The notes under the pieces: model-generated
The model's database searches: none
What the model was told of the DNA's origin: nothing
The model's input: only the letters and a program-made list of their open reading frames with translations
Program-made: the position numbers and the translations under genes
In this document: positions 11,691 to 36,491 of the stretch, one piece after another
Layout of the letters: each line of letters opens with the position of its first letter
Numbering within the stretch: position 1 is the stretch's first letter
Assembly: GCA_950295325.1 (NCBI GenBank)
Contig: OX485804.1
Coordinates: forward strand, 39,804,001-39,868,000
DNA length: 64,000 nucleotides
Direction: 5' to 3'
Source of the DNA: Polytrichum commune
Lineage: Eukaryota > Streptophyta > Polytrichopsida > Polytrichales > Polytrichaceae

Positions 11691-12396
11691 TGAATAGAGT
11701 ACAATGAAAATGGGTTTCATATCCTGGAACGATGACAAAGATAGGAGAACTCTGATACTCCACGAATTGTAGCAATGTGCATTTTTTTTGTCGTGGGATC
11801 AAGAGACAATAGGCCCATAACCCTATTTTACTTCATTCCACAACGATGAGGGAATTTCAAATCAACACACTATCTCTTTCCAGTTTATTTCCTCTGCTCC
11901 TGGTACATTTATATTCAGTCCACAGGTCATGCGAAGAACACAAGGAGCCTGCAGGGTAAACAGAAATGTATCAAAGTTCAACGTCAATTGATTGCAGAAA
12001 CGCAGCAGCGGCAGCAGCAACAAAGAAGAGAATCGGCAAAGAAATCATAATTGGGAAGGTGAAGAGAGTGAGTGTCTGTCTGTCTTCTCTGTCTACACAC
12101 GTAGTGATGGTGGCAGGAACGGAGGAGATCAGGGGAGGAGGGTTACATCGGTCAAATCCGACGGTCGAGAAAGCATAGGCAACCTGGCCTCACCAGAAGC
12201 CAGAAGTTGTTTTCATCACCCATAGACTTCTTCTCGATAATTTTGTCTTGCATTGTTACAACAATCTCATATCTCCATTTAAGATATGCGATGTTATTTG
12301 GTCAATTTTCTTTATCGAATATATGTATTTGATCGGTGCGTGGTTCAGTGATGACCAAATGATAACCACTGTCAAGTCACATGTTTGAAAACGATT
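11691..12396. other. Intergenic DNA, no recognised gene
   Basis: Overlapping short plus-strand frames at 11966-12225 include an alanine run and arginine-rich stretches but no motif. They are judged not to be a gene. Confidence 0.4.
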
Positions 12397-12488
12397 TGTC
12401 GTGTAAACTAAGATCGTTAAACACAACAGATCGAGTGTCGTTGTCAACATCAATTAGCAAAATAAAATGCTAAACAACCACCTCTTCA
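12397..12488. repeat. Direct repeat X1 outside the 3' LTR
   Basis: 92 bp. On the minus strand it starts TGAAGAGGTGG and ends CACGACA. It is nearly identical to 12925-13029, apart from a 13-bp indel and one substitution. The two copies bracket the 12492-12922 LTR. Having TG...CA termini it resembles a small LTR or LTR segment, but its role is unclear. Confidence 0.7.
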
Positions 12489-12491
12489 AGA

Positions 12492-12922
12492 TGAGGGTTT
12501 CTCTCTCCAAGCTTAAGAAACTAAAATGTCTCTTTACAAAGCTTAAGAAACTCTAAAATTCACACACAAGAGTCAAGCTATCTCTCACTCCACGAAGGGA
12601 GAATCCAAGAGTGCAAGTGGTGGAGAAAGAATGCAAAGGCTTTACTCATAATCTACTTCACCATAGCCATGAGAAAGCAACAACAAGCTCTCTCTCTCTC
12701 AAAACACACTCACAAGACTTGACTTGACAACAATGGCAAGTCAAGAGGCCTTCCTCTCCATACAACTCCAATCCTATGTGGAGTTCATCCATGGAGTGGA
12801 TGAACAACTAACTAGGACTCCCAATGGAGTCCGTTACTCATCCCAATACACATGGACTCCTATTGGAGTCCATTTACTCCTAAATTGACGTAACTTAGCC
12901 CCCGATGTCACCTCACGTGACA
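12492..12922 (-). repeat. 3' LTR of the DNMT/PHD retrotransposon
   Basis: 431 bp, TG...CA ends. It matches 22944-23376 with four substitutions and one 2-bp difference in a CT microsatellite. On the minus strand it begins with the self-complementary end TGTCAC-gtgag-GTGACA and includes a CACGTG palindrome. It is a string of short perfect stem-loops: GGACTCC/GGAGTCC twice (12815-12832, 12854-12871), GTTCATCC/GGATGAAC (12783-12805) and CTTGACTTG/CAAGTCAAG (12718-12745). No target duplication is visible outside the pair. Confidence 0.9.
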
Positions 12923-12924
12923 GC

Positions 12925-13029
12925 TGTCGTGTAAACTAAGATCATTAAACACAACAGATCGAGTGTCGTTGTCAACATCAATTAGCAAAATAAAATAGCA
13001 AACTAAAATGCTAAACAACCACCTCTTCA
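12925..13029. repeat. Direct repeat X2 inside the 3' LTR
   Basis: 105 bp, the partner of 12397-12488. On the minus strand it lies between the end of pol and the 3' LTR and is preceded by the purine-rich tract CTAGTGGGGGCACT. It is absent next to the 5' LTR at 22944-23376. Confidence 0.7.
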
Positions 13030-13355
13030 AGTGCCCCCACTAGCAGATAAGGAGCCCCTCCAATCGGTTAGGAACAAACACACTCATCGATAGAGTTGTT
13101 GAACATGATGAAGTTGTTGCTACATCTATACATATTTAATTGGGTAGTAGTAATCGAAGGAATTAAACTCGTGATTGACAAAGTAATCCAAGAACTGTAG
13201 GCTGGGTGCAATGTGAGCCCCATCCTTAATCGCCTTCAACAATTAATGTTGAATTCTTGGATAACTCTTTCAATGTGGTCTTAATTCCATAAAATTTCCA
13301 ACCAACTAAATAACAACTTCACCACTAAAACATGTGGTAAACATCCACAAAATTC
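13030..13355 (-). other. 3' untranslated region of the retrotransposon
   Basis: About 330 bases between the pol stop codon (13356-13358) and repeat X2. No open frame. It ends in the G-rich tract at 13031-13044, which looks like a polypurine tract. Confidence 0.5.
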
Positions 13356-13883
13356 TCAATCATGACCATTAACGGCCACGGAATGAGAGGCCTTCCGACA
13401 ACGAGGACAAACCCAATTGCCAGAAGAAAGAATAAAAAGGGGAGGTGTCAAACATGCCATGTGTCATCCACGTTGACATTGGTCGCACAATAACATTGTT
13501 GCAGCTCCTTTCTTCTCTCCACAAACATAACAAGGCAGACCCTGTGGTACAATCGCCAACTCGGGATGCACAGAGCCGTCGATGGGAAGGTGACATGGAG
13601 CACAATTCTTTGAATGCTCACGACATTCCCGTCCATCCTTGCCTTCAAGCAATAATATACCACTTGGCAAGACACCTTTTACCCGCAAAATCGTGCGCCC
13701 AGCCTTGACATCCAATGTCGTAGGCGCCTCCCGTTGCAAGTAAACATAATCCCCCTTGGAAAATCTACGAACCTGAGGTCGATAAGCTCCACTGCGGATC
13801 CGGGCATACCGTAATGTATCACGATGTTGAGCAATATTTAAGTTCTTCATAGCCATAGGCATGGCCTTTTGGAAGAACGTTGC
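13356..13883 (-). pseudogene. Integrase C-terminal module with PHD finger
   Basis: This is the last part of the polyprotein, after the stop at 13884-13886. It contains the AQHRDTLRYARIRSG block typical of plant gypsy integrases, a small barrel-like segment (GDYVYLQREAP to VLPSGILLLEG) and then a PHD finger at about 13398-13532. The zinc ligands read CYVC, an 11-residue gap, CDQC, four residues, HMAC, 14 residues, CPRC. This is the canonical Cys4-His-Cys3 order, with the CLTPPL and GNWVC blocks seen in histone-reading PHD fingers. The aromatic position before the His ligand is now TGA (13464-13466), one G-to-A change from the usual Trp. A PHD finger here replaces the chromodomain of chromoviruses and could bind a histone tail and steer integration; that role is inferred. 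Confidence 0.85.
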
Positions 13884-14984
13884 TCAGTCATGAAGACATT
13901 GAGCCCAAACATCTGGATCATCCAAATTTACCACGGGAGCCAATTTCTCTCGCACCGAGCTAGGTAAAATTGGTTCCCGTCCATACAATAGTTGGTAAGG
14001 ACTATAGGATGCCAAAGATGCTTGCCTGTTGAAACGATAACCCATTGCTATCCATGGTAACATCAAGTCCCAATCACAATGGTTGCCATGAAGCAATCCA
14101 TACTTTCGCAAACCGCGCTTAACCGTCTGAACAACTCGTTCAGCTAAGCCATCTGCCTCAGGGTGATCTCTGGAAGTTGTCCGATGATCAATCAAAGCCT
14201 TGGTACACAAAGCCTCGAAAGATCCAAGGAATTCTCTCCCTTGATCCGTCAATACCTCTACAGGTGCTCCAAACCGTGCCAAAACTCGATCAAGAAATGC
14301 CATAGCTGCCAATTCTGAGGAATTTTGGGGAAGAGCCACGAGTTCAATCCACTTACTAAAATGCTCCACCATCACAAGCACATACTTGGAACCACGTGGA
14401 GTAATAGTAAGCGGTCCGGCAAAATCCAAAGACCAACGATATTCCAAGCCCATAATAGGTAAAGGATGAAGTTGAGGTGACAAAGTATTAAAACTTGACC
14501 TGTCCTGGTCACATACTTCACACCGAGAAACATAAGTGGCAACCTATTGGTACATACCAGTCCACCAATATTGGTTGCGCAATATAGAGTGTGTCCTTCG
14601 CACTCCAAACTGTCCAAGCTCCTCGTGCACTTGCCGCACCAAAGAAGCTATTTGATCTGGCCTTGGAACGATGCGCCTCGTTCCGTTCGGCCACACACGA
14701 AATAACAAGCCGTTTGTCCAACGAAACCTTGTTATCCGATGACTAACTTTATCTCGCTCCATAGAAGATAGTCCAAGAGGAAATATCCCTTGTTGAAGTT
14801 TGTGCAAGACCGCCTGGTCTTCCCACACATCACTAACAACGAGAGATTTATCAACCTCCTCATCTTGCTCTTCCACAAGGATTTCAGCAGCCAATCCCGA
14901 CATCATTGTGAGATACGTGGCAGCATGCCTGTCGCAACCCTTGCTAGGTCCCTTAACAATCTTGCCAATTTTCGTTTCTAGCAA
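13884..14984 (-). pseudogene. Integrase (HHCC zinc domain and DDE core)
   Basis: It would insert the element's DNA into the genome. The N-terminal zinc domain has the two histidines in VHEELGQFGVRRTH and the two cysteines in SRCEVC, with a TAG stop (14544-14546) between them after the MYQ residues. The catalytic core has D in WSLDFAGP, D in LTDQGREF and E in DGLAERVVQTVK, so all three acidic residues are present. The core frame runs 13884-14483 and ends at TGA (13884-13886), where relatives usually have Arg, suggesting a CGA-to-TGA change. Upstream the frame is cut off by the inserted repeat at 15003-15902. Confidence 0.9.
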
Positions 14985-15002
14985 AGGTTACGAGCGCTAA
15001 CC

Positions 15003-15902
15003 ATTCGCATTCCGCCATGCTAATGGATAGCTCCTCTTACCCCGGACCAATAGTTCATAGGAGGGAACCAACCCTCCTACTTTGCTTTCGGGATTCACCC
15101 CTTAATCGGTAACCCATTTCCCCAATGTGGACTTCCATTCATGGAAGTCCAATCCTATGTTGATCATCGCGTTGCCCGAGCAACACTACAACAACCCGAA
15201 CCATACTAGGCAACTATGGCCTCACAATAGGCCAAAGCCCATGGAGGCCTTGCCGTTCGGCCTCGGGTGGGTGAGGCCACACCACCTCACCCATATAAGC
15301 CTCTAGGACTTCACGCGGGGCCCCTACCCCACCGTCAACCAACCTCTTGTCTCTCTACCAAGAGTTGGGGCCAAGTGGACATTTTCCCTTAGCCGCTGGG
15401 CCTAGAAGCCCCCAGCAGCTTCAGACCATCATAACTTCCTTGTATGATGTCTGATTCCAGCAACCAACCACTCCATCTTCATCTACGCTTCACGTAGATG
15501 CCGATGGACTCCTCACTTGCCCCATTTGGGCAAGTGGTGAGGAAGTTATGCCTGTTTGAACCTTGGCAGTCCCGGGAATCACTCCCAGGCACTGCTGTAG
15601 CAGGGCGCTGTCCCGGGACAGCGCCCCACTCAAATGGCCATAACTCCTAGCTCACACCTCCGATTGAGGTGTTCTTGAGCATTCTAGAATCACCACGCCA
15701 TGAGCTACACATAGCTCATGGCCTTACCCTTGTGCCTCCTAGTCTTCGTGGATGGGAGGCGTTCCCAACGCCCGGGGACCTCACCCATACTAGGATCACT
15801 TGGGCCCTCTCACCAACGGCGCCACAAGTCCCGGGTGTCACTCCGGGGTCCCCCTTGTGCCCATGGTGTTTCGGGCACTCCTCATGGAGAGGTGCGCGAC
15901 AA
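15003..15902. repeat. ~0.9-kb hairpin-rich repeat inserted between RNase H and integrase
   Basis: GC-rich block that interrupts pol: RNase H reading stops making sense at 15902 and integrase resumes near 14987. A diverged second copy lies at 25908-26467 plus 27067-27137. The block is a string of stem-loops: AGGAGGG/CCCTCCT (15059-15078), GGACTTCCAT/ATGGAAGTCC (15129-15150), CATCTACG/CGTAGATG (15480-15500), CACTTGCCC/GGGCAAGTG (15514-15536), a 24-bp perfect palindrome (15603-15626), CACCTC/GAGGTG (15655-15671), GCCATGAGCTA/TAGCTCATGGC (15697-15722) and GGCGTT/AACGCC (15758-15772). On the minus strand one end is TGTCGCGCACC, so a solo LTR is one explanation. No clear target duplication was found. 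Open frames here are spurious. Confidence 0.75.
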
Positions 15903-16393
15903 TGCCAACCCGGCACTGCCTCACGATCACAATCTCCATGCCACCTGGCTCCAGTTAAATCCTCATCTGAAGGACTTGGATTGCGAGACAATCCGTCTGC
16001 ATCCAAGTTGGCAATTCCTGCTCGGTGAACAACTTCAAAATCATATTCTTGAAGTAACAATGCCCACCTAGCAAGTTTTCCGGTGAGCTTATCTGATTCC
16101 ATGAGTCATTTTAAAGGCTGATGATCAGTCACCAAAGTAAACTTCTGCCCATACAAATAAGGTCGAAAATGTGCAATGGCCCAAACGGCCGCCAAGGCCT
16201 CGCCTTCATAAGAAGAATAATTAGATTCAGCACTATTATTACTTCTAGATGCATAAGCCACCACATATTCCTTTCTCTCTTCATCTTGCTGTATCAATAC
16301 CGCTCCCAATTCCACTGCACTCCAATCCGTGTGCAATTGAAAAGCTCTAGACACATCCCGGCGTCGAAGCACTGGCGTTGAACCGAGCCTCTA
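15903..16393 (-). pseudogene. RNase H domain of the polyprotein
   Basis: It would degrade the RNA strand during reverse transcription. It follows RT directly after a TAG stop (16391-16393). Acidic active-site positions are visible as D in FQLHTDWSAVELG, E in SSYEGEALAAVW and D in LVTDHQPLK. A TGA at 16106-16108 follows LK, where related elements usually have Trp (TGG) or Arg (CGA). The frame then gives [20 protein letters not shown] and the conserved tail VVHRAG...NLDADGLSR. The native sequence continues to a Trp codon at 15905-15907 and is then broken by the inserted repeat. Confidence 0.9.
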
Positions 16394-17476
16394 TTTCAAT
16401 GTATCAAATGCCTGTTGTTGTTCTCGACTCCAAATCCATGGTTGGTCTTTCCCCGTGAGAATGGTAAGAGGTTTGGCAATCAAATTAAAGTTTTTGACAA
16501 ACCTCCTATAATAATTTGTCAATCCTAGAAATGCACGAAATTGTGGTACATCACTAGGTGCGGGAATTTTGTGCAAAGCATCCACTTTCGCCTGTTGCAC
16601 ACCAAGACCGCCAGGAACAATCATGTGGCCTAAATAGGCCAATTGATCATGGAAAAACTTACATTTTCCATGATATAAACGGAGTCCCCACCGTTGAAGT
16701 CGTTCAAATACCGCTTGCAAATGTCTCACATGATCCTGTGGACTATTACTAAAAATGATAACATCATCAATGTAACATCTAGCAAACGGCAAACCAGCCA
16801 ATAATTGGTCCATCACCTGCTGAAATTCAACTGGTGCATTCTTGAGACCAAATGGCAGAAATTTCCAATGATAAAGTTGATCCTTGCCATCTTTATCAAT
16901 TCCCCAAAATGCGGTCTTCACCCGATCACCCAACAACAAAGGTAATTGGTGATAACCAGACCTCAAATCCAGAGTGCTGAAGATTCTAGAAAATCCCAGT
17001 GCATCAAACAACTCCTTCGGCATCGGCATTGGATATCAATCCGACTTGGTCTTGCGGTTGACTGGACGATAATCACCACACATCCGTTTTTCCGTCCAGT
17101 TGCCAAAGATATATTTCTTTGACGGCATAACCGTGACACAAGCATACTCTCCATTCGAGAGTTCAATCAATCCCGCTGCCAATAACTCTTGGCATCGAGT
17201 TTGAACACCCAACCTTTCAGAGGTACTAAGTCTGTACGGCCGTCTGAAAATAGGGTGGTCGTCCTCGAGTTGAATACGAACAGATTTACCTTTATATCCT
17301 TCAAGATCATGAAGACTAAAGGCAAAACAATTACGGTAAAAGCGAATAAATGCCTGTACATTTCGTGCTTCGGCACCAGTAAGCTTTGGCCCCACTTCAA
17401 TTGGCCAATCGTCAAACTCCGTGGTTTCCTTCTTCATAGAAGGATTGCCACTTGGTGCCAGCACAGCCTGTGATTG
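16394..17476 (-). pseudogene. Reverse transcriptase domain of the polyprotein
   Basis: Ty3/gypsy RT. Visible blocks are RMCGDYRPVNRKTKSD, STLDLRSGYHQ, FLPFGLKNAPVEFQQVMD, the catalytic box CYIDDVIIFS (YIDD rather than the commoner YLDD), LGHMIVPGGLG and FLGLTNYYRRFVKNF in the connection. One TGA (17036-17038) falls between KSD and YPMPMP, at the Arg of the conserved D-R-Y-P motif, so a CGA-to-TGA change explains it. Another stop, TAG, at 17477-17479 separates it from the methyltransferase. There is no other frame loss in about 1.1 kb, showing recent coding constraint in the lineage that gave rise to this copy. Confidence 0.93.
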
Positions 17477-18949
17477 CTAGTCCGTGGAGAGGGCAACACC
17501 TTTGCCCCCATCATCTGGACTTGAATCCAAATGCGTATCCTCTCCACTACAATCAGTTTGTGTAGCTAAATAGCTACCAACATATGAAGTATCACCAAGA
17601 TATAGAAGTGGAAACATTTTATGGGCCTCCAACTTCCCAAACTCTTGGGCCAAAGCCGAAAAAACACGTTGGGCTTGAAGCTCTTCCGCAACATGAAGCT
17701 TCAAAGGAAATAATCCCTCGGTGTCATTGACCTCAATGTGATCCTTGGATTGCGGCTCCATTGCCCCCTGACCATTGTTCTCTGCCCTCAGAGTAAGCAA
17801 TTGGTCATCCATACGTTGTTGAGCAGCAAAACAAATTCCAATTATCCACACAATGCTATTAAGATCCATAGCTTCCCCCAATAAGAAATGTCTCCGACCT
17901 TCCTGAAGCCCGTGAGCAGCCGTGGTACCTGTAAGAAAACCCATGGCGCATTCCCGCTCAACTGCCGTAGGCTCCTCATAAGTTTGGGATTTTGAATCCC
18001 AAACCATGCCAGGTCCACGAGATCGAAATGCAAAAGACTGTGGATATGTCACAAAAGTAGGTAATGCACCTCTCGGAATGCCCACCTTATTAATTAATGC
18101 AAATGGCAAGGTGTCATCCTTGGTAACTGCCAAGGAAACACGATGATCATCTAAAATGTCATCCACCTTGCGATCCATAAGGCGGGGAATGCGGGCAATC
18201 GCCGCTGAAAACACCCGAGGTGATATCAAGTTGGTCCAAAATCAACGAGGCCGATGAGCAAAAGATCCCAAAGATGCAGCATCCAGAAATGTTGGAGTAC
18301 CCAGAATTTGGTTAATGTACTCACCGTCCTTCACCACTTTGTGCCGGGTATCACCCAATAATGGCACATTTTCGAAAATGTACCCTGGCGGAGTTGATTG
18401 GTGGGTAAACCACCATTGCATCAATTGCATCAAATCCGCAAACAAACTAGACCTATGATCATCCAATCTCTGGCCAGTTCCTGCCCGCGAATGGCCTTGA
18501 CAAGGCCATCCTGCAATAATCAAATCCACGTGGCCCAACCTTCTCAAATCCTCATCACTAATCATAATGACATCTTGAGGAAGTTGACCACAACATCCAT
18601 GAATGGCAGAGGCTCACAATTGTACGGGGTATCTCAACAACAATTGTTGGATGTGGTGTCGGACGGCTCTGTTGGCTGCATACCCATTGTCCACATGAAT
18701 ATATCGCCAAACTGTAATTCCAGCTTCCAACACTGCCGCCAAACCTGTGCCAATGCCTCCAAAGATCTCCACAAGGACAATACCTTCAGGTGACGGTTGC
18801 CAACGAATGGGTTGAACAAAAGAAAATGAGGATGAAGTTGGAGGTGCCTCTCCAAGCTCCAAATCCGCTACAATGTGTTGACAATGTTCGGATAACTCCT
18901 TAGGAGTTCGCCATGGTGGAGGTAGATACTTGAAATGTCGAGCAGGAAT
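17477..18949 (-). pseudogene. C5 cytosine DNA methyltransferase domain inside the retrotransposon polyprotein
   Basis: Would methylate cytosine at carbon 5 using S-adenosylmethionine. Motifs in order: I, VLVEIFGGIGTGLAAVLEAG (about 18720-18778); IV, DLIIAGWPCQGHSRAG with the catalytic Cys at 18500-18502; VI, GYIFENVPLLGD with the Glu near 18373; VIII, AHRPR followed by a stop (18242-18244) then FWTNL; a TAVERECAMGFLTGTT block matching the conserved region before motif X; X, GEAMDLNSIVWIIG. Motif I resembles DNMT3-type enzymes more than bacterial ones. Two TGA codons (18614-18616, 18242-18244) break it, each one C-to-T step from CGA. It sits in frame between protease and RT, with a ~100-residue tail rich in acidic residues before RT. 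There is no separate start codon, so it was presumably made as part of Gag-Pol and released by the protease. Confident for family, not for CG or CHG specificity. Confidence 0.92.
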
Positions 18950-19375
18950 TTAAAAAGATGGTAAAAATTGTTGTTCTGCTGCATTACAAGTGTAGTCCAT
19001 TGTTTCCTCCAATAAAACTGGAGCACAAGGCAAATCTGCGACTGAACCGCTGCAACCAAACATTGCCTCCGCAACCATAGTCATAGCAGTGGCTGCAAAT
19101 GTGACGGGAATAAATACCTTTCTGCCATCTCCAGTGGACCATCCCGGTCTAATCCATGCCTCTTCCGTCCAATTATCCAAACCAAAGCCAAGTGGATAAA
19201 GAGCTTGCTGACCAACAAGTATATCATAGTTGGTAGCATTAGTAACAACACACTTCATTGACAAATGAGTGTAAGTAGGCCCTGCCCCCACATGAAAAAT
19301 CAAACGTAGAGGTGCCTTGGTGTAACCTGTTGCACGTTCAGTGCCCCTACTGAAGTCACAATAGTGAATGGACAA
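18950..19375 (-). pseudogene. Second half of the aspartic protease and linker, shifted frame
   Basis: This frame picks up where the Gag-protease frame ends, offset by one missing base in the GGGG run near 19347-19352. It carries the protease second half (ERATGYTKAPLRLIFHVGAG, then TNATNYDILVGQQALYPLGF). The sequence DILVGQ corresponds to the ILG block that packs under the active site. After that comes a linker with WTEEAWIRPGW and a TAA at 18950-18952, after which the frame continues toward the methyltransferase (IPARHFKYLPPPW). The shift relative to the upstream frame is consistent with a single-base deletion. A programmed -1 shift is less likely because it would split the protease fold. Confidence 0.8.
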
Positions 19376-21576
19376 GGATCCAAGCTTGCTGGCGTCAATC
19401 CAAGACTGTCAGCAAGTCCTTTGCCAATCATAATTGGTTGAGCACCGGAATCCATCATAACTCTCAGTGGTGTAGCACGGATAGTGGGCATATCCGTGCG
19501 TGAAACGACAAACAAAGATTTGTCGTTCATCAGCCGTACAACTCCAGGTTGCAAATTATGGCGTTCGCGAGCAGGCCTTGCAGAAATGTCTGCAAGATAT
19601 GCCGCTCCTGAAGCATAATTCGAAAATGACGTATCCACTGCTGAAATTGATGCTGGAGGAATATCAGTTTGCTTACCAAAAGCAATGATCGCCGCATCCG
19701 CAAGACTCGCTCGCAAATTGGCTAAGTCCTCCACCTCCTCAGCCACAGGTACGTCAACCACAACTTGGGATACTTGAAGGAATGGCAAATCCGCCTTACC
19801 TTCTAACATTCTCCCAGCTAAATGAAAAACTACAGCAGGCTTGAAATCCGAAGCCATAAACTCCGAACCCGAGAAAATTGGCATATGGAGAATTTTATAT
19901 GCCAATGCCTGCGTAACATCCTTCGAGATGGAATCCCCATCTCTCAAAGGTACAGGGTTTTTAGCCCCAACAACAGTGGTGTCTACCAATCCAAATGAAA
20001 GAAGTAACCGTGTTTGACCAATTTGATCAGCTGGTCCGGCATGGCGAGGATGTAGCACCTCGTTGCTACCACCACTCGTGGAAGCCACCGCATCTGCCAA
20101 TGTTTGTGAGCGAATAGAAGCCGCCGCCGCCACCACCTCTCCCGCTGCTCCAAACATATACATGTCCGAACCCGAGGTGCCACCACCCACATGCGGCTCA
20201 GAAATTTGAGCAAAAGATGCAGAAGATTTGAGCTTTTGCTCAAGCTCTGCCACCTTAGCCTCAAGACTCTGCTCCCTTGGAGACTTTTTAGTGACATAAC
20301 TAGCAGGCCGCATCTCAGGATGAAGTTGGAAACAATGATCCACATCGTGATTAGTGCCACCACAATGGCTACATTTCAATTGTCTCTTCTTAGAATTGTC
20401 CCCTGCCCTTACTGGTTCCATCTTTTGTTTTAATTTTCCCAAAGGCTGAGTTTTCTTCTTCTTAGGACAATTGGGATCATTCTTCGAATGACCAGCTTCT
20501 CCACAACCCCAACAATGCAAAATCTTTTGCTCCTTGACGGGTTGAATCTCAGCTAAACTACTAGTAGCTGTGACAATTCTTTTTGGTTTCGGACTCTCTG
20601 TCATCCAAGATACCATATCCGTGGCATCATGTTGGCAAAGAGTCCGATCACATCTTTCAACCACGGCAAACGCTTGTGCAAGCGTAGCTCGGCCCTCGTA
20701 GTCGAGGATAATCCGAGGTGATGCCAACTCAAGTAGCCGCTTGTCAATCTTAGACAAAAAGATTTTAACAAGCTGACTCTCAGCAAAAACACCTCCCGAC
20801 TCCACCGCAAATCGCGCGAGTCGCGTATACATGGTCCGTGGAGTATCATCCTTCTCTCGGCGGAAATCCTGGATGCGCTGCATCTGGTCTCGCCGAAACC
20901 CACCATACTCCACTTCCAAATGTGCGACAAATTCAGTAAGGGGATTAAACGGAGGTGGTGGACCAACAGCCGTCAATGCTGCCTGTGTAGCACGTGCCAC
21001 CCGTGAAAGGGTTGCCGTGCTACTGCTAGCCACCATTGGCCCAAGTGCCAGTTCCGTGTCCTTAGACTCCGCCGGCGATTCCTCCTCCTTTAAGGTGGGT
21101 GGAGCTAAGGTAGCAACCGCCCCATCCTTAAGGGCTGAAATGAGCTCAACCCGAGCCTCCCAATACTGCTCCACCTCCCGAAGTTGTCGCTGATGACCCT
21201 CTGTCCAGCGTTCATAAGTTTGGAGTGCCTCATACTCCAAATGTTGAGGCAGAAGTTCAAAGGCATACCAATCATTGAAATTGGAAGACCTTTGGCGTTT
21301 CTCCTTAATCCAGGTACGAAACCGGAGTTTCCAATCGGGCAAGGAAATGCCCCCAGCTCGACCTGAAAACCGATCACGCACTGAATTGTGGCGATCGTCC
21401 TCCATTTCGTCGAACGTGCCGACACTCCAAATCTGAAGCCTACTAGTAGTGTCCAACGCCGAAATAGGCTCAAAAGCCTCGTTGGTATCTACCTCTGGCT
21501 CAAGATTTGTGGTATGCACGTCCTCCAAGTAATCTGGTGATGGAGATCGATAATATCGGCTCCTAGTTTGCACCAT
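19300..21576 (-). CDS. Gag and first half of protease (758 residues)
   Basis: The longest intact frame in the window. It starts at ATG 21576 (MVQTRSRYY) and is the first domain after the leader. Residues ~205-310 form the retrotransposon Gag core (FNPLTEFVAHLEVEYGGF, then PRTMYTRLARFAVESGG). Two CCHC zinc knuckles follow at residues 355-370 (CWGCGEAGHSKNDPNC) and 402-415 (CSHCGGTNHDVDHC), which would bind the RNA genome. A coiled-coil-like segment (SLEAKVAELEQKLK, ~437-450) and an Ala/Ser-rich linker lead to the protease with the catalytic triplet DSG at 709-711 (RVMMDSGAQPIMIG). The last ~14 residues are out of frame because of the one-base loss near 19350. About 700 residues before the protease is long for a plant gypsy Gag. 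Confidence 0.9.
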   Translation of the reverse strand: MVQTRSRYYRSPSPDYLEDVHTTNLEPEVDTNEAFEPISALDTTSRLQIWSVGTFDEMEDDRHNSVRDRFSGRAGGISLPDWKLRFRTWIKEKRQRSSNFNDWYAFELLPQHLEYEALQTYERWTEGHQRQLREVEQYWEARVELISALKDGAVATLAPPTLKEEESPAESKDTELALGPMVASSSTATLSRVARATQAALTAVGPPPPFNPLTEFVAHLEVEYGGFRRDQMQRIQDFRREKDDTPRTMYTRLARFAVESGGVFAESQLVKIFLSKIDKRLLELASPRIILDYEGRATLAQAFAVVERCDRTLCQHDATDMVSWMTESPKPKRIVTATSSLAEIQPVKEQKILHCWGCGEAGHSKNDPNCPKKKKTQPLGKLKQKMEPVRAGDNSKKRQLKCSHCGGTNHDVDHCFQLHPEMRPASYVTKKSPREQSLEAKVAELEQKLKSSASFAQISEPHVGGGTSGSDMYMFGAAGEVVAAAASIRSQTLADAVASTSGGSNEVLHPRHAGPADQIGQTRLLLSFGLVDTTVVGAKNPVPLRDGDSISKDVTQALAYKILHMPIFSGSEFMASDFKPAVVFHLAGRMLEGKADLPFLQVSQVVVDVPVAEEVEDLANLRASLADAAIIAFGKQTDIPPASISAVDTSFSNYASGAAYLADISARPARERHNLQPGVVRLMNDKSLFVVSRTDMPTIRATPLRVMMDSGAQPIMIGKGLADSLGLTPASLDPCPFTIVTSVGALNVQQVTPRHLYV

Positions 21577-21730
21577 AAAATAATCACTTGAATACCTGCA
21601 ACTATCTACAAGGTAATGGCAACCTGCACCTGTTGCGGGCTATCTAAATGGCAATCCCTTGCCAAATGCCAAGTGTTTATGCCCCCAGAATTCCAAAATT
21701 GTGCAAAGGTTTGAGATTGGTAATTAAAAT

Positions 21731-22022
21731 GAAAAATCAGCGTTGAAAAGGCTCATTTCCAAGGTGATTATGGACTCCAATCAACAAACTAAATGCACCA
21801 ATGGACTCCTAGGAAGATTTCACACAAATTAGGCTCAACTTTCACTCTGTTCGGAGTTAATTTGCTCCCAAAAACAAAAATCAGCGTTGAAATTAATAAT
21901 TTCAGCAATGATTTTGAATTCCAATCAACAATCCAATTACACCATTGGATTCCTTGGCAAATTTCACACAAGATAGGCTCAAATTTCACTCCAATCGGAG
22001 CTAGTATGCCCCCAAATTTGAA
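21731..22022. repeat. Tandem 146-bp duplication in the retrotransposon leader
   Basis: Two copies start with AAAAATCAGCGTTGAAA (near 21731 and 21877). They share CCAATCAACAA, a CACCA(A/T)TGGA(C/T)TCCT block, ATTTCACACAA, TAGGCTCAA and TTTCACTC(TG/CA)T(T/A)CGGAG. They lie in the untranslated leader just upstream of gag. The frame across them on the minus strand is repetitive and not a gene. Confidence 0.65.
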
Positions 22023-22025
22023 CCT

Positions 22026-22943
22026 CAAAATTTGTGAGAATTGGATGCCAAGTTTGAAAGGTGAAAATAAAAATATGAAAAATAAAAATAAAATAAAATA
22101 AAATAAAAATATTTGTGTTAATTAAACAAAACAAAAACCAAAAACCAAAAACAAAAAATAAAATAAAAAATAAACTTAATTAGCTTAAATGAATTAACTT
22201 AATTAATTTAATTTAACTCAACCTAATTTAATTAACTTAAAATAATGAACCTAATTAATTAAGCTAATTTAAGTTAATTAACTAACCTAATTAACTAACC
22301 TAATTAACTAAGTTAATTAACTAACCTAATTAACTAATTAAGCTAACTAACTTAATTAATCAACTTAATCAACTTAGTCAAACTTACCTTGAAAAGGGGG
22401 GGGGGGGGCCAGGCTGGCGCCGCCCGCCACCTCGGCCAGGCTGTCGCCCGCCCGCCCCCGGCCCCGGCCCGCTGCCACCTCGCCGCAAGGCCCGGTTGGC
22501 GCCGCCCGCCCGCCCCCGGCCCGGGATTTTGCCGCCCCTGGGTGCAGAATTGGAGCTCCATGAGCTCCAAGAGTGTCCGTGGAGCTCCGGAGCTCAAAAA
22601 AAAATTATAAAAAAATTCGGATTGTAAGTTTGGTTTGTGTTTGTTTGTAAATTTAAAAAAAAATTAAACTTTGCTTTTACAAATTGCAAGCAAGAATGAT
22701 GTGACTTGAGAATCTTGAGACCAAATAGAATCTCAAGATTCAACCATCAACACTTGAAGAAAACACAAAGAGACAACAAAAGAAAAATGGGAAGATTTCT
22801 CTCAAAATCTTCTTGAGGGTTGCAAGAAATAACAAACTAAGCTTTCAAACACTTGTATCACTCATTTGCTCTCAATACTGGGCCATTCTAGCTCAGGAAT
22901 ACAACCAAAAATTGAAAAATTTGAGCCATATTGTTGTCAAGTA
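22026..22943 (-). other. Retrotransposon leader: AT-rich blocks and a GC-rich, G4-prone segment
   Basis: From 22075 to 22185 the sequence is A-rich (AAATAAAAT repeats). From 22180 to 22380 it is a TTAATTAA/CTAACCTAATT repeat. A run of 14 G follows near 22396, then ~150 bp of very high GC (22410-22560). On the RNA-sense strand the GC block contains GGGCCGGGGGCGGGCGGG twice, which fits the G-quadruplex pattern. The rest to 22943 is AT-rich. I could not identify a convincing tRNA primer site next to the LTR. Confidence 0.55.
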
Positions 22944-23376
22944 TGAGGGTTTCTCTCTCCAAGCTTAAGAAACTAAAATGTCTCCTTACAAAGCTTAAGA
23001 AACTCTAAAATTCACACACAAGAGTCAAGCTATCTCTCACTCCACGAAGGGAGAATCCAAGAGTGCAAGTGGTGGAGAAAGAATGCAAAGGCTTTACTCA
23101 TAATCTACTTCACCATAGCCATGAGAAAGCAACAACAAGCTCTCTCTCTCTCTCAAAACACACTCACAAGACTTGACTTGACAACAATGGCAAGTCAAGA
23201 GGCCTTCCTCTCCATACAACCCCAATCCTATGTGGAGTTCATCCATGGAGTGGATGAACAACTAACTAGGACTCCCAATGGAGTCCGTTACTCATCCCAA
23301 CACACATGGACTCCTAATGGAGTCCATTTACTCCTAAATTGACGTAACTTAGCCCCCGATGTCACCTCACGTGACA
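22944..23376 (-). repeat. 5' LTR of the DNMT/PHD retrotransposon
   Basis: 433 bp, TG...CA ends, matching 12492-12922 with four substitutions and a 2-bp microsatellite difference. It carries the same stem-loop string as the 3' LTR. The flank at 23377 (AATTGG) does not match the flank at 12491 (TCAAGA), so no target duplication is visible. The X repeat that brackets the 3' LTR is missing here. The plus-strand frame at 23121-23342 lies within the LTR and is spurious. Confidence 0.9.
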
Positions 23377-23870
23377 AATTGGACTACAACCTCAAACTTT
23401 ATTAACTACTCCACAATCATTTATCGTCTATATATTATGAACAACTATTGGGAGGATCTATGTACTATGCAAAGAATCAACAAACATGCAATTATAATAA
23501 TATTAAATAAGGGGAAGTCCAAATTGCAATCCAATTTTGCCGATGCTTAATCATTGATTTGCTAATACAACACAAGTTTTGTTGTGTAAATCTAACTAGG
23601 GGATACTGGGAAGAAAAGAAAAAAAGGTGTTGCACCGCATGACCGGGAATTTTGTGACATAATGCCCCTTTTATGTTGGGCCACATGTACAAAATGTACA
23701 ATACTCATCTTGAGTATTCTTTATCTTGCAAGGGTGAACTAACAGTTGTTGTATCAATATGGGTTGGCAAACTGTGAATTAGTGTTGAATAGTGTCAAAT
23801 AAAGTAAACAATTCAAAAGTGATTGTTGCATGCGACCCACATGGTTGACAAACCTTTCAAACAACTCAAG
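23377..23870. other. Intergenic DNA, no recognised gene
   Basis: AT-rich flank of the retrotransposon. Short frames on both strands (23359-23701) have no motif. Confidence 0.4.
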
Positions 23871-25907: not shown

Positions 25908-27137
25908 GGTAGCCAATGATTAGATGTGGACTTTCATCCATGAAAGTTCACTCTTGAGTTGATCATTGTGTTGCCAAAGCAACACTACAACAACCCGAAG
26001 CATAGTTGTCAAGTAAGCTCCGGGTGGGTCGGTTCGGCAAAGTAGACATTTTCTCTTAGCCAATAGGGCCCTAGCAACTTCAGACTTCCATAACTTTGTT
26101 ACATGATCTTTGCTCCTATCAAGCAATCACTCTATCGACATCTACTCTTTGCGTAGATGCCAATAGACTCTTCACTTGCTCCATTCAGGGAACTCTTGAG
26201 GAAGTTATGGTTGTTCTAACCTAGGCAGTCCCAGGCGCCACTCCCAGGTCATTGTTGTCCCAAGGCGCTGTCCTTAGGCAACGCCCCATTCAAATTCCCA
26301 TATCTCATAGCTCACACCTCCAATTAGGGAATTCTTGAGCATTCTAGAATTTGGACGCCATAAGCTACTCATAGCTCATGGCCTTACCCTCGTGACTCCT
26401 AGTCTCCGTGGGTGGGAGGCGTTCTCAACGCCCAGGGCCCTCTCACCTATGGCGCCACAAGTCCCGGTATCGGGTAGAGAGGGTTCCGCCTTGGGAAAGC
26501 ACTGGGCTTCTGGCTACAACTAGATTTTATCGGACCCGTCGAATCTTCTGGTCTTCAATCGAGTCTTCTGGTCTTCTAGTCTTCAATTTCTTCAATTTCT
26601 TCTAATCTTCAACCTCTTTCCCGTCGACTCACACCGTGAGCTTCGAATCCACTTCTCTCTCTCCACAACTTTTCTCCCACAATAATCACATAACATCTTT
26701 CCTTCACCACCTCTCTCTATCCATGCGAGAGACAAAGTTCTATCTTATCCTCATCACATGGCTTCTAATCACCCATTGGTCCAAAGTAACTCAAGATAAC
26801 TAAAAGACAAAAATAAACTATGAGTAAATAAGAAGGTAATCTATTTCTATCATTTGGTAAAGGTAACTAAGAGTAACTATGAGTAAACATAAAGGTAAGC
26901 AACTTCTATCCACTTCTATCCTTAGGTAATGATAACTAAAATAAACTATGAGTAAATAAAAAAAGTAATCTACTTCTATTCTTTATTATTTTTCTCCAAG
27001 ACCAAGAATCACAATGCAATATTAAATACATACACATCTATATAGTGTACGTATTTACATCACGACACCGGGTGTCACTTTGGGGTCCCCCTTGTGCCCA
27101 TGGTGTTGCGGGCACTCCTCATGGAGAGGTGCACGAC
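25908..27137. repeat. Second copy of the hairpin-rich repeat, split by a 0.6-kb insertion
   Basis: 25908-26467 and 27067-27137 together align with 15100-15902. The split lies at GTCCCGG / CCGGGTGTCAC. Stem pairs such as GGACTTTCAT/ATGAAAGTTC, GTTGC/GCAAC and GGCGTT/AACGCC are retained with changes, while others (the 24-bp palindrome) have decayed. The inserted 26468-27066 segment is unrelated and pyrimidine-rich (TCTTCTGGTCTTCAATC, CTCTCTCTCC). On the minus strand it begins TGTCGTGATG, so it may be a solo LTR of another family. Confidence 0.65.
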
Positions 27138-30330: not shown

Positions 30331-30389
30331 CTCAAAAAAAAAATGACAACATGTAAGATAACCTGCAAACAAAAAACTGTTATCGTCTA

Positions 30390-31415
30390 CAGTCTAACCT
30401 TGATAATGTCACCCTTGTTAATAGAACACCTTGATATTGTCACCTAAAAGTTTGAAACCGATTTTCATAGTGTAAAACTCCCTCGTTATTATCCCTATCA
30501 CCCTTGATAATGTCACTATTTTTTTTCAAAATCCGTAGTGTAAATGTGATAATATCAAGTATGGATGGATTGTATGGGTGGGCATGGGTTCGATATTATT
30601 GTTCATGGGTGAGCATGGGCTAAAGCAAAGCATATTGGGGGTCATTGAATGAGCTCTCATTCAATGCTTTCGGCATAGTGGGATGCCTTGTGTAATTTCA
30701 AATTTGGTACGTGTTTCGGAGTCCAAATGCTCAATTCTACATACTCGCAATTGTCTGTAAGTTGAGGCCAAAGGTGGAAGTTCACAAACACACAAATCTT
30801 TGCCATGGCCAATGCAACTCCAACTCCATCTGCATCTCCACTTTCTCCATGCAGATAATAACACTTTATTCCATGTCGAGTTTTGAAATTTTGCAACCAC
30901 CCATGAGAAAGCTTGAACTCGGTATCAGATATGCCAAATGAATCCCTCAATTCCTTAGCCTTTTGCATAATGACATCATCAGTTACTACTCCCCTCCGTG
31001 CTCTGACCTGTCCAAACCATAAAACCAAAGCTTTTTCAAGCTGAGGCCATTTTCCAACTCGAGCGCGTCGTACATTGCCTTCACGCACACATGTATCCAT
31101 GTTCATCCACTTCTCTTTTGAACGAAGAATCTTGGAAATAGTGGTTCGATCCACAAGCCTGAATTTATGTTGATCCACCATATACTGTGCAAGGTCTTGT
31201 TGTTATTCACAATTTTGAATTAGATTTTACATTCAAAAACATTGAAGTCTCGTATTTGTTATTTTAAAAAAAATTGTAATTATATTTTGATTTTCTACAT
31301 ATTTTTTGATAATATCACATTATGCACAAAATGTGACATTATCAAGTATGTCACACCTTGTTTATATCACACTTTTTGGTGAAACGGAGGGTGTGACATT
31401 ATCAAGGCTAGGGTG
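30390..31415. mobile_element. pogo/Tigger-like DNA transposon, rearranged copy A
   Basis: Inverted termini CAGTCTAACCTTGATAATGTC and the reverse complement of CATTATCAAGGCTAGGGTG are flanked by TA on both sides (30388-30389, 31416-31417). This is typical of Tc1/mariner-pogo elements. The outer ~170 bp on the left and ~220 bp on the right match copy B (35224-36489). The interior instead carries the transposase N-terminus on the minus strand. Confidence 0.8.
30657..31200 (-). pseudogene. Transposase N-terminal DNA-binding part (Tigger/CENP-B type)
   Basis: The reading starts in the element near 31200 (DLAQYMVDQHKFRLVDRTT) with a first helix-turn-helix ending SKILRSKEKW. A linker leads to the second, CENP-B-type helix-turn-helix: KWPQLEKALVLWFGQVRARR, then VMIQ-like VIMQKAKELRDSFGI, then LSHGWLQNFKTRHGI. 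This pair of domains binds the transposon ends in pogo/Tigger transposases. The DDE catalytic domain is absent. After ~residue 125 the sequence loses similarity to the family, so the product would be a DNA-binding-only fragment. Confidence 0.75.
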
Positions 31416-31417
31416 TA

Positions 31418-33189
31418 CTGACCATCAACCCAGTCTCACCATAAGGTTAAACAACTGCCAAAAGAAGTACGAATGACTTTCGCCTTCAAAAATCTCCTAC
31501 AAGGCGCCACAGAAAGTGATTTCACTAGTTATCACTCCGGCCTCATCACCACAAACAACTAGGAAGCAATAATAAGACATAGTACAAACACAAAATGGAG
31601 TGCTAGCCACATAAATGGGAGGGTACCGAACGAAAATCCACATGAAAATAGATCCCTATTCCAACTGAGTTGCAACTTTGCAAAAGCCGAGTTACAACTT
31701 CAACAAACTTACGTATATTGACCTGGACGCAATTAGTGGCAAAAATCACTACAAACAAATCCGCACATGTTGATATAGGTGCATCTGGTGCCTATTATTA
31801 AGCCAAAATCAACTACTCATGCAGACAAAGAGTAGTGATATAATGAGTAGAAGGGTTAAGGCAAGGAACCCTAATCCTTTGAAAAAATTAGTATGGAAAA
31901 TAAAAAGAGAGAGGCTAGTTACATTCCCTATGCTCATACAAATATGAAATAACGTTAAACACCTCAACCGAAGTCGTGAGGTAAAGTCTTACACGATGTA
32001 ACAAAAAACATGTGGTATTGTTATTTTGATTTGTTTTCATTGACTTTCGTAAAAAAAAGAAAGTAATAGAGAAGGTTAGGAGACGGTTGTGATTAAAATC
32101 ATGACTTCTAAGAGTGTCTATTATCTATTTTGTTGAATTTGAAGATTTAATCTTACTAGAGTAAGTTTTGATTTAATTACAATTTAGTAGTTGTTAAAAA
32201 GAAATGTGAAGATTGTCTCACTGTTATGACCCGTGTGGTTTTATGATTAAAAAATACGAATGGATAGAGACAAGGGGGGTGATGTGGATCACCCAATTGT
32301 TTAAGGGTGCCCATTAGGCAAAGGACGGGCTCGTGATGTGTTCCTCCTTGTGGATGGATAAGGGGGCCTCTTCATCTCCCGAGGTCATCATCTCTCCCAT
32401 TTTGTTTCGTATCTTTGTGGAAAAACCACTTATTTTGTATAGTTGGGATTTTAATAAAACTTTGTGAGCTTCTTCCTTTTACTTTTGTGATTCCAATGAT
32501 TTATAGATTTCAATGAAACTTTGTGAGTTTCTTCCTTTTGCTTCATTCTATTTGGAGTTGTTATGAGAAAATCATGCATCTTAGAGCAAAGACAACTTTA
32601 TTGCCGTCGGAATCCAAGAGCAGGTGCTTTGAATGCTTGTGCAAATATGGAAAATTATTGGTTTGTTTTCATATTTTAGGAGTACATGAATTATGTTTAT
32701 GACTTCCTAAAAAACCATCAAATTTTTAGTTTGGATATAGGATGTAAAAATTATGGATATGGAAGTGTGAGGTGTAAAATTGCCATTGGATTTAGGAATT
32801 GCTTTTTAAAAGAGCTTTAGAAAGTAGACAAAATGAATTTTTAGCTAGGTTTGTCTAGAGAGCAAAGAAAATAGAATTGGGCTTCCAAACTTCATGGCGC
32901 ATTTCATTTAGGGTTTTAATGATTTATTATGGCTTCTGGAGCGAAGGGGTACATAGCTATCATTGAATTTTGAAGCCTCAACTTCAACACATCATATGTA
33001 TTGAATGTTTAATTATTTTCATTTTAATATTTAATATTTAATGTATCTTTGTGTTGGCTTTCTAAAAATATATAGTACACATTATTTGGAGTAGTTATAC
33101 ACCTATGGCGTTCAATTGAGTGATGACAATATTTTTAAGGATATAGGTCTCTACACATATTGGTTTTTTAATGGTATAACCAATTATTT
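31418..33189. other. Intergenic DNA, no recognised gene
   Basis: AT-rich with no frame above about 60 codons worth noting and no repeat pairing recognised. Confidence 0.4.
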
Positions 33190-34659: not shown

Positions 34660-35221
34660 CTTAGATCTACTGCTCTCCTCGCTTCCATATCTAAAGCTTC
34701 AATCCCCACTTTGCTCCACCAGTATGGCTTCTTGATTCAAACATCTCCTAACCTATTCAGATCTAAATCTAAAGCTTGATTTCCGTTTGATATGTTCTAA
34801 TGTCAAGATCACAGATACCCTCACATCCCATCCCTAGGATATGCATATTGGATATATCAAGGCACAAATTTTGATGCATCAGATGCATCAGATGCTCCAC
34901 CTCTTTTTCTTCCTTTCAGCGTTCCATTGCTCTCGCCCATTATTTGATGCACTTTGAAATTCCCCTTTACCACGGTCCGGTATCGAGTTGTTGTAAAGTC
35001 TATGTAAACTTGTTTTGGATTCACATATGAACATGCGACTAATATGAAGATTCTTTATCTCTTTATATGATCAAATAGGCCATTTCCAAATTTACTTAAA
35101 CATCAAACCTACATTCTTTAAAAATTTGGTTATACTCTAGTAGACTCTGAGAAAGCTAAGGTACCAAACTTGTTGAGCTAGCCTCATGTTTTAAATTTCT
35201 ATATTCTGGATGCAGTCCATC
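34660..35221. other. Intergenic DNA, no recognised gene
   Basis: May include the 5' UTR of the LINE-like ORF on the minus strand. There is a small local repeat GATGCATCAGATGCATCAG near 34873. Confidence 0.35.
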
Positions 35222-35223
35222 TA

Positions 35224-36489
35224 CACCCTAACCTTGATAATATCACACTTGTTAATAGAACACCTTGATATTGTCACCTAAAAGTTTGAAACCGATTTCC
35301 ATAGTGTAAAAGTCCCTCGTTATTATCACTATCACCCTTGATAATGTCACATTTTTGTTTCAAAATTTGTAGTGTAAGTGTGATAATAACAAGTAACATG
35401 GATGAAAAAAGGCCGGATGGACAACAAATTCTATGGATGACGTCGGCATCTTCACCTGCTTCCGCTTGAATCTTGGGTTCTTGAATCTTGAATCTCATGT
35501 GCCGAAGAAGCAACGGTTTCTCTCGCAGATCAACTTCTTGCAGCTCCGCCTGCATCGTATGCTCTCTCCTCTCGCCGCTCCACACACCACTCTGCCCCTC
35601 ATCTTCTTGCCGCTCTCCTCAACAAATTGCTGCATCCACAAGGTTTCTTCCTAAATGGTACTTTTGAAGCTTTGAGGCTTGTTGAATGAGTTCGGTGTTG
35701 AAGACCATTAGAAATTGTTGGAGAAAGTCCGCCATATTGCCTGCAGAGTGGAATGCAGATATAAACAATCTTGATGAACGTATGAAGTCCAAAATGGAGG
35801 AAGCAACTTTGGAATTGGGTAGACTCATCGCCGCATTAAATTTGGGTTTGGATGTTGAAGGCAAGCCTGTAGAAAAGCTTTGTCCTTTGGAGTACATAAA
35901 CATGGAAGGTGAAGATGATTTTGAGGTGGAATTTTCTATTGAGGAGCTTGTGCAATTAGTGCAAGATGGCGAACATGTTCTTGATTCCATGGAGGTGGAC
36001 CCATTGATTGTTGATAGCAGTGATGATGAATCTAAAGTAGTGAAGCTAAGCGATGCACAAAAATATGCTAAAGATGTTTTGAATTTTATGGCTAGCCAAG
36101 GTTCTCAGATTTTTAGCACTCATGAGTTGTTAGAAATGGAAAAAATCCATGACAAACTCATTAGAATTGGTGTTGCACATTTAACATCAACAAAACAATG
36201 TGACATTAGAAGCTTCTTTGTCTCTAGTGAGAGGTCTTTACCTGATCTCAATGACACATTATGATGTGCTCTTGTTGTTATTCACAATTTTGAATTAGAT
36301 TTTACATTCAAAAACATTGAAGTCTCGTATTTGTTATTTAAAAAAAATTGTAATTATATTTTGATTTTCTACATATTTTTTGATAATATCACATTATGCA
36401 CAAAATGTGACATTATCAAGTATGTCACACCTTGTTTATATCACACTTTTTGGTGAAACGGAGGGTGTGACATTATCAAGGTTAGGGTG
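35224..36489 (+). mobile_element. pogo/Tigger-like DNA transposon, copy B
   Basis: Termini CACCCTAACCTTGATAATAT and the inverted ATTATCAAGGTTAGGGTG are flanked by TA (35222-35223, 36490-36491). It carries only the 3' half of a transposase gene on the plus strand, so it is an internally deleted, non-autonomous copy. The termini match copy A (30390-31415). Confidence 0.85.
35686..36264 (+). pseudogene. Transposase C-terminal part (Tigger type)
   Basis: 192 residues. TIRNCWRKSAIL matches the block that follows the DDE domain in Tigger/jerky-like proteins. It is followed by an acidic tail (MEGEDDFEVEFSIEELVQL, VDSSDDESKVVKLSDAQK) and the end motif CDIRSFF. The same tail is seen in the minus-strand protein at 48465-48887 (VVMEGEDIIEAEY, VKLTDAQQHAQL, RTIDSFF), confirming a shared transposase family. 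The catalytic domain and the DNA-binding domain are missing here, so it cannot transpose itself. Confidence 0.75.
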
Positions 36490-36491
36490 TA

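Follow-up and report, generated by a model that had tools for sequence, protein, structure and literature searches.

A dead Ty3/gypsy copy in Polytrichum commune belongs to a recently mobile family with a predicted DNMT3-class cytosine methyltransferase domain and split repeats

The window analysed here, a stretch of 64,000 nucleotides from the moss Polytrichum commune (contig OX485804.1, positions 39,804,001 to 39,868,000), contains on its minus strand a Ty3/gypsy retrotransposon with a C5 cytosine DNA methyltransferase (DNMT) domain between protease (PR) and reverse transcriptase (RT) (Table 1). RT is followed by RNase H (RH) and then by an rve integrase (INT), which is the Ty3/gypsy order of domains. 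Ordinary direct long terminal repeats (LTRs) are not found at the two ends of the element; the coding strand instead reads A1 - coding - B1 - GC - A2 - B2. The preliminary description of this DNA had assigned the methyltransferase to 17477..18949, collinear and in phase with Gag-Pol. That interval does hold the domain, yet it extends from stop to stop (18950, 17477), the core covering about 17819-18805. Frame 0 is common to the PR end, DNMT, RT and RNase H pieces, whereas frame 1 encodes Gag with the N-terminal part of PR, and frame 2 encodes INT. The Asp_protease_2 match in 19300..21639 is weak and lies under the Pfam cut-off.

Table 1. Features of the Ty3/gypsy element in the window
Feature	Position	Strand	Basis or remark
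Whole Ty3/gypsy element	12397-23376	-	runs from 23376 to 12397
Repeat A1, element 5' end, starts TGTCACG	22943..23376	-	identity to A2; same start in 7 fetched pairs
A segment complementary to the primer-binding site (PBS); putative RNA 5' end (self-priming)	23176..23188	-	exact 13-nt reverse complement
Candidate PBS directly after A1	22930..22942	-	complementary to A segment
Gag and protease start, frame 1, first Met ~21576	19300..21639	-	tBLASTn 94.5-96.7% to nine subfamily-1 copies
Protease end and linker, frame 0, frame-shifted relative to Gag in window copy	18950..19408	-	piece comparison with relatives and fetched copies
DNMT3-class C5 cytosine methyltransferase core (predicted)	17819-18805	-	PF00145, PDB profile search, domain envelope; 2 in-frame stops in window copy
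Motif I EIFGGIGTG (S-adenosylmethionine binding)	18743..18769	-	translation, compared with DNMT3A
Motif IV GWPCQ (catalytic Cys)	18497..18511	-	translation, compared with DNMT3A
Motif VI ENV	18365..18373	-	translation, compared with DNMT3A
Motif VIII HRPR-stop-FWTN	18230..18259	-	translation, compared with DNMT3A
Motif X LGEAMDLN	17858..17881	-	translation and PDB profile search
End of ORF1 with tobacco mosaic virus-type readthrough context TAG CAA TCA	17471..17479	-	stop-context comparison
Reverse transcriptase, frame 0, broken	16391..17476	-	RVT_1 E=2.1e-28 for piece 16391-17035
RNase H, broken	15887..16390	-	piece RH1 50-60% identity to related polyproteins (best 8 listed)
~1 kb extra sequence interrupting ORF2	14937..15886		missing from the RH-INT interval of ten fetched copies
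Integrase (rve), frame 2, broken	13884..14987	-	rve E=3.1e-14
C-terminal PHD finger region	13464..13883	-	below-threshold Pfam match (E 0.021); identity 44-50% among best 8 listed PF00628 polyproteins
Polypurine tract GTGGGGGCA, immediately 5' of B1	13032..13040	-	repeat and joint comparison
Repeat B1	12925..13031	-	repeat and joint comparison
Palindrome GACA-GC-TGTC at B1/A2 joint, proposed integrase site	12919..12928	-	shared 16 nt ACACGACAGCTGTCAC
Repeat A2	12491..12922	-	repeat comparison
Repeat B2, element 3' end, terminates ACACGACA	12397..12490	-	repeat comparison
3' target-site duplicate	12393..12396		minus strand AATC vs AATT at 23377-23380, one mismatch

The window copy is dead. Stops at 18950, 18614, 18242, 17036, 16391, 16106, 14544, 13884 and 13464, positions at which fetched relatives stay open, fall in the PR-DNMT linker, DNMT, RT, RNase H, INT and PHD, and are accompanied by frame shifts and by the ~1 kb insert. 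Parts of this insert (15125-15782) recur beyond the element at 25924-26442 with 80-84% identity in the self-match. Over 437 aligned positions, A1 and A2 show 4 differences (Kimura two-parameter distance, K2P, 0.009; 98.4% identity in the self-match). With a divergence of less than 1% between these repeats, the many stops and shifts exceed the damage expected for that age, and the template of the window copy may have been a parent that was broken before and was copied in trans.

Motifs I, IV, VI, VIII and X of C5 methyltransferases, proposed previously for this locus, are all present in the minus-strand translation of 17477-18949 and follow each other in canonical order, with PC in motif IV, ENV in VI and RxR in VIII. 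Pfam family PF00145 (DNA_methylase) matches the piece 18242-18613 with E=6.8e-11 (42.6 bits, cut-off 22) and the whole domain, in which the two stops are read as X, with E=7e-10. The Pfam alignment spans just 75 residues of the domain, and neither of the two outer pieces has a Pfam match when scanned singly; the remainder is covered by 68 homologues from the protein search and by human DNMT3A. Human DNMT3A and DNMT3B are also the best PDB matches of the domain read with X (E from 2.3e-6). A profile of 52 relatives matches DNMT3A at 4.3e-28 and DNMT3B at 3.8e-25, followed by 4onj, which we take to be a DRM (2.8e-13), DRM2 (2.2e-10), HhaI (1.8e-9) and DNMT2 (3.5e-9 to 6.3e-9); DNMT1 is absent among the PDB matches of this profile at 0.01. 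In the alignment of DNMT3A to the profile, motifs I, IV, VI and VIII are in register and a weak third stretch covers motif X. The matches are thus C5 methyltransferases with DNMT3 first, and not unrelated Rossmann proteins. The window domain is a C5 cytosine methyltransferase with DNMT3 as its nearest class by family profile, for which methyl transfer itself is predicted. A DRM-type enzyme is ruled out because the motif order is canonical; moreover, DRM chains align over motifs I to IV only. Contamination from a prokaryote or phage was likewise rejected: 16 IMG/VR loci matched short stretches only, and the window sits within a 70-Mb contig.

The same genome, assembled into 64 contigs totalling 408 Mb (C1-C7, the seven met here, measure 42 to 78 Mb), holds many copies of the element. 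The PF00145 profile gave at least 123 scored matches among 353 candidates, nine of them within a 1386-codon open frame, and the window RT piece at least 150 scored matches of 1904 candidates, all with at least 86% identity and 19 with a 1047-codon open frame; since only the best candidates were scored, these counts are lower bounds. Ten copies, nine of them close relatives, were first fetched in full, hand-picked from plus-strand matches and mostly chosen for long open frames, and two sets of twenty loci were then random draws. In the first set, drawn from the 113 PF00145 matches not fetched in full before, the RT start of the element lies downstream in 20 of 20. By comparison of positions, both frames are full-length and open in at least six copies. 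A1 and A2 are identical in three of the seven dated subfamily-1 pairs and differ by K2P 0.002 to 0.021 in the others; they are also identical in the subfamily-2 pair. The family is therefore multicopy, with recent insertions, and has been recently mobile. Outside the family, a 196-codon frame at C2:4703600-4703962 (-) is 37% identical to residues 4-113 of the DNMT3A query (PF00145 1-100) and may represent an exon of a DNMT3 gene belonging to the host. A pattern scan of genome contigs gave 16 matches, none of which was confirmed.

The preliminary description had located the domain inside Gag-Pol, between PR and RT. Its position is confirmed, whereas one uninterrupted Gag-Pol is not what the relatives show. 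Four of them (P0168-P0171) are intact Gag-PR-DNMT proteins of 1330-1376 residues. Moreover, among 21 proteins aligned to residue 200 or beyond of D3, the last piece of the methyltransferase, 20 end 0-54 residues past the match, and seven of the 21 do so at the last residue of the window's own frame; the remaining one belongs to a second layout described below. DNMT is thus the C-terminal part of open reading frame 1 (ORF1, Gag-PR-DNMT), and RT, RNase H, rve integrase and PHD make up ORF2, which in open copies is in the same frame as ORF1. Most ribosomes would halt after DNMT, so that the enzyme would be made at the level of Gag and packed into the particle. Made there and packed with the RNA, it would, if this model is right, be best placed to methylate new cDNA. 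This is its most likely action in our scheme, and the insert would arrive already marked and be less recognisable as foreign. Self-methylation of cDNA was also suggested for previously described DNMT elements, in the accessible text of PMC5890265. Nevertheless, methylation of cDNA within the particle is the least certain step, and we advance it tentatively, as something a little short of even. Alternatively, the enzyme might act on the host, by methylating host chromatin or competing elements, or by restraining the spread of the element for mutual benefit. The same accessible text (PMC5890265) raises a restraining role as one possibility, and the PHD finger, judging from the name of the domain, could read histone marks; synthesis within the Gag polyprotein, however, would place DNMT with packaged RNA and cDNA, and we regard action on the host as somewhat unlikely.

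Selection on the domain was estimated from 26 DNMT (two places fetched twice removed), 32 RT and 8 Gag-PR open domains as the ratio of nonsynonymous to synonymous divergence (dN/dS), leaving out pairs with dS below 0.02, between 0.25 and 0.4, or undefined. Between subfamilies, DNMT has dN ~0.27 and a ratio of ~0.11 with saturated dS (2.2-3.1; 47 pairs); the corresponding ratios are 0.035 for RT (148 pairs, dS at least 0.4) and 0.113 for Gag-PR (one pair). For pairs with dS of 0.02-0.25, the medians are 0.40 for DNMT (173 pairs), 0.20 for RT (279) and 0.41 for Gag-PR (17). Thus, DNMT is constrained, approximately as Gag is and less than RT. The similarity of DNMT and Gag-PR within subfamilies would be consistent with a domain kept for nucleic-acid binding or for folding of the Gag polyprotein, with catalysis dispensable. 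This is unlikely given the conservation of catalytic motifs across the 26 open domains, in which pattern counts found motif VI (ENV) in 26, VIII (HRxRxxWTN) in 26, PCQ in 25, I in 24, X in 23 and IX in 21. Purifying selection was reported for the domain of KnitGypsy-Dnmt3, a gypsy element of Klebsormidium nitens, with DNMT Ka/Ks <0.2 between copies (PMC5890265, accessible text); the moss values lie on either side of this figure, ~0.11 between subfamilies and 0.40 within them.

The stop that separates the two frames has a distinctive context. TAG CAR YYA stands at the end of ORF1 in 47 of 54 distinct places that have an RT start (four loci fetched twice removed), spelled TAG CAA TCA in 34, TAG CAA TTA in 11, and TAG CAG TTA and TAG CAA CCA in one each. 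As a control, 113 other in-frame stops located from DNMT to the end of ORF1 were compared, of which one fits this pattern; the control set includes frames already shifted in dead copies, and one stop can count more than once in it. The two subfamilies are only ~52% identical in D3 and differ in the flanking codons, and the context is kept in them as TAG CAA TCA / TAG CAA TTA. According to the accessible part of PMC2754532, CAR YYA after UAG is the context essential for stop readthrough of tobacco mosaic virus in plants, where the replicase stop is, as here, in phase with the downstream polymerase frame; the signal alone is common to the two systems, and readthrough in the moss element is predicted. 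Consequently, the stop at 17477 is apparently a natural and leaky end of ORF1. Damage as its cause was rejected, since ORF1 of relatives ends at the same point and the readthrough context is kept. One could also suppose an ordinary terminator, with ORF2 translated after reinitiation or from a separate RNA, and a Met is indeed present 14 codons into ORF2. This is quite unlikely, however: the four spellings vary at R/Y positions only, ORF2 stays in frame, and DNMT and RT are fused as a single protein in P0036, P0074 and Closterium P0135.

The split order of repeats seen in the window is complete in eight of the ten fetched copies, seven of which have the window's A and B; the eighth belongs to subfamily 2, whose repeats align to the window A in patches only. 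The copies have TGTCACG and ACACGACA as their outer ends. Exact 4-bp target duplications flank seven of the eight pairs (GAAG, TTAT, TAGC, CATC, GAAG, ATTG and GATG), and that of the eighth is mismatched (TGGC/CGGC), like the one in the window. Within each pair, the polypurine tract immediately precedes B1, and the palindrome GACA-GC-TGTC lies within the identical 16 nt ACACGACAGCTGTCAC in 8 of 8 pairs showing the joint, in both subfamilies; six of seven subfamily-1 pairs also agree exactly at the A2/B2 joint. In the window and six copies, A1 is followed by 13 nt that are perfectly complementary, in reverse, to A positions 189-201. The one subfamily-2 copy compared has a different 15-nt pair at A position 124, with changes on both sides, and letter shuffles of A reached neither the 13-nt pair (0/500) nor the 15-nt pair (0/500). 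A tRNA scan and an Rfam scan of the window gave no match. In place of the tyrosine recombinase and the lack of target duplication that mark the DIRS order, the family has an rve integrase and 4-bp duplications. Since the ten copies viewed in full were hand-picked and nine are closely related, the split repeats might be chance rearrangements of an ordinary LTR element that lie outside its life cycle. We consider this very improbable, as the same order recurs in 8/10 copies and two subfamilies, with A1 and B2 bordered on their outer sides by duplications, and DIRS-like repeats were reported for KnitGypsy-Dnmt3 (PMC5890265, accessible text).

The methyltransferase is part of the element, as had been claimed, and does not belong to a nearby host gene. 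A DNMT match at the right distance is listed for 63 of the 150 scored RT matches, and a random 20 of the other 87, the window included, have the DNMT pieces D2 and D3 upstream in 18 cases, a D3 fragment in one and none in one. Although the domain is interrupted by stops in the window copy, a private, one-copy capture of a host DNMT gene fragment with no role in the element is refuted by the other copies carrying the domain next to the element RT (the window is one of the 18), by the 1386-codon open frames and the between-subfamily dN/dS of ~0.11, and by homologues adjoining protease or RT in proteins of Sphagnum, Marchantia, Calypogeia and Closterium, so that its probability is negligible. As a separate observation, the RT copy L049 has the leaky stop context, and its 2.7 kb of upstream sequence contain neither a PR nor a DNMT piece; it is a possible DNMT-less derivative.

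Protein searches gathered 178 proteins, of which P0176-P0178 fall outside the family by weak scores and content. Named sources of the relatives are Sphagnum troendelagicum, Marchantia polymorpha, Calypogeia fissa and the desmid Closterium sp. NIES-53; none of the 178 proteins is named as from K. nitens. The second layout, RT-RH-DNMT-INT-PHD, was read in 35 proteins, among them metagenome polyproteins and one EukProt transcript (many of P0140-P0166), which share homologous DNMT, RT, RH, INT and PHD with the moss element and differ in that their DNMT follows RNase H and precedes integrase. Of the 178 proteins plus the window domain, 102 spanned 75% or more of the domain model. A first tree comprised 98 of the 102 together with DNMT3A, after four short rows, probably including Closterium P0134 and Sphagnum P0043, had been dropped. 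In the 99-row tree, the 35 second-layout proteins group with six rows of unread layout in a single 41-row clade, which has a support of 99 in the SH-like approximate likelihood ratio test (SH-aLRT). On a 51-row DNMT tree of chosen rows, in which the window and the genome copies were preset to PR-DNMT and rows with unreadable neighbours were left out of the layout count, the layout changes once. The window pieces match second-layout proteins at 34-46% (RTc), 50-60% (RH1), 45-50% (INTc) and 44-50% (PHD) identity among the best eight listed for each, and therefore the two layouts represent one gypsy lineage with a relocated DNMT.

Taken together, these data suggest the following life cycle. While most ribosomes stop at the end of ORF1, a minority would read through and make the polymerase. 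The RNA would fold its 5' end onto the PBS and prime itself, as in Tf1 of fission yeast, in which the RNA 5' end pairs with the PBS and starts reverse transcription; Tf1 differs in having ordinary LTRs, a single ORF and no DNMT. Because the polypurine tract lies directly before B1, reverse transcription should yield cDNA with an ordinary LTR, B-GC-A. Integrase would then open a two-LTR circle at its internal palindrome, GACA-GC-TGTC, and insert it, giving A-coding-B-A-B; given the identical A2/B2 joint in most subfamily-1 pairs, such circles would need precise joining. As a whole, we find it probable that the window holds a dead copy of a recently mobile Ty3/gypsy family with a Gag-level DNMT3 and integration of permuted cDNA.

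Several observations weigh against this scenario. Catalysis, methylation, readthrough, the circle and the particle are all predictions from sequence. Within subfamilies, the dN/dS of DNMT (0.40) indicates weaker constraint than that of RT (0.20), and these ratios come from open domains only, with saturated dS between subfamilies and pairs of undefined dS dropped. The exact readthrough context is missing in 7 of the 54 places, all single spellings and some one base off. Two of the ten copies do not show the full repeat set: L025/L026 has A1 and B1 with no A2 or B2 within the following 2.1 kb, and L035/L036 contains extra sequence and its 3' end lies past the fetched stretch. In addition, L043/L044 has a different A2/B2 joint and a local duplication in A. 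The branch leading to DNMT3A is very long (3.6 changes per column), so that capture from a plant DNMT3 is a conjecture. Finally, we know of only one published assay on such a gypsy DNMT, a yeast test of KnitGypsy-Dnmt3, in which no methylation was seen and which was described as inconclusive (PMC5890265, accessible text).

Gypsy elements carrying DNMT3 are already known, and the moss family adds a multicopy case with recent insertions. The accessible part of PMC12344493 (2025), citing the 2018 work of de Mendoza et al. (PMC5890265), mentions streptophyte and dinoflagellate retrotransposons with DNMT3 members. Among the papers listed, our literature search, whose coverage left out most subscription journals, found no report of a retrotransposon DNMT from a moss or other land plant. 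The closest system is KnitGypsy-Dnmt3, which, by comparison of descriptions, shares gypsy coding content, an unrearranged DNMT3-class domain in the polyprotein and repeats in the A-coding-B-A-B arrangement termed DIRS-like in the accessible text of PMC5890265. There, DNMT is in the Pol ORF of a charophyte element, whereas here, in a moss, it is joined to Gag ahead of an apparently leaky stop, and target duplications, a putative self-priming site and the palindrome are described. SymbioDIRS-Dnmt3 of Symbiodinium likewise has DNMT3 in a retrotransposon polyprotein, A-coding-B-A-B repeats and two coexisting domain orders, and differs in its tyrosine recombinase, as opposed to the rve integrase and 4-bp target duplications of the moss family (PMC5890265, accessible text). 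New here are a DNMT that ends ORF1 before a tobacco mosaic virus-type stop, split repeats with 4-bp duplications, and a covarying candidate self-priming site.

An element of a type normally silenced by host DNA methylation has thus kept a tool for writing that very mark, and why it does so could be tested in moss and in Marchantia, for which genetics is established. Split repeats in combination with a DDE integrase also provide a concrete hypothesis for the origin of such repeats. As relatives occur in other bryophytes and a desmid, carrying DNMT may be an old streptophyte trait of gypsy elements. A broader scenario is possible but doubtful: an old streptophyte gypsy lineage, from desmids to mosses, would combine a Gag-packaged DNMT3 that pre-methylates cDNA, a tobamovirus-like leaky stop, self-priming and permuted insertion by the DDE integrase at the LTR palindrome, its split repeats being convergent with those of DIRS.

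A land-plant host, raised as a possibility in the preliminary description, is supported by LEAFY, which makes a moss very probable. The genome has four SAM_LFY matches, and the DNA-binding domain of the best-covered gene (L087) is 88.5-92.5% identical to PDB 4bhk (LEAFY homolog 1), presumably from Physcomitrella, 75-79% to Arabidopsis 2vy1 and 79-83% to 9g19. It reads KMRDYVH, compared with KMRHYVH in Arabidopsis, and we assume the D at this position to be the moss type of LEAFY.

Elsewhere in the window, long open frames occur at 55137-57082 (+), where 55137-55949 and 56282-57082 were scanned and had no Pfam match. DUF4216 (just under the cut-off) and DUF4218 are found at 60349-61074 and 61400-62257 (-) and are presumably remnants of CACTA/En-Spm type transposons. 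A Tc5-type transposase DNA-binding domain is encoded at 30660-31202 (-), near direct repeats (31195-31419 / 36270-36493 at 99% and 30386-30561 / 35220-35395 at 93%) that may frame another element. Diverged tandem repeat blocks occupy 38439-39044 and 39758-41026.

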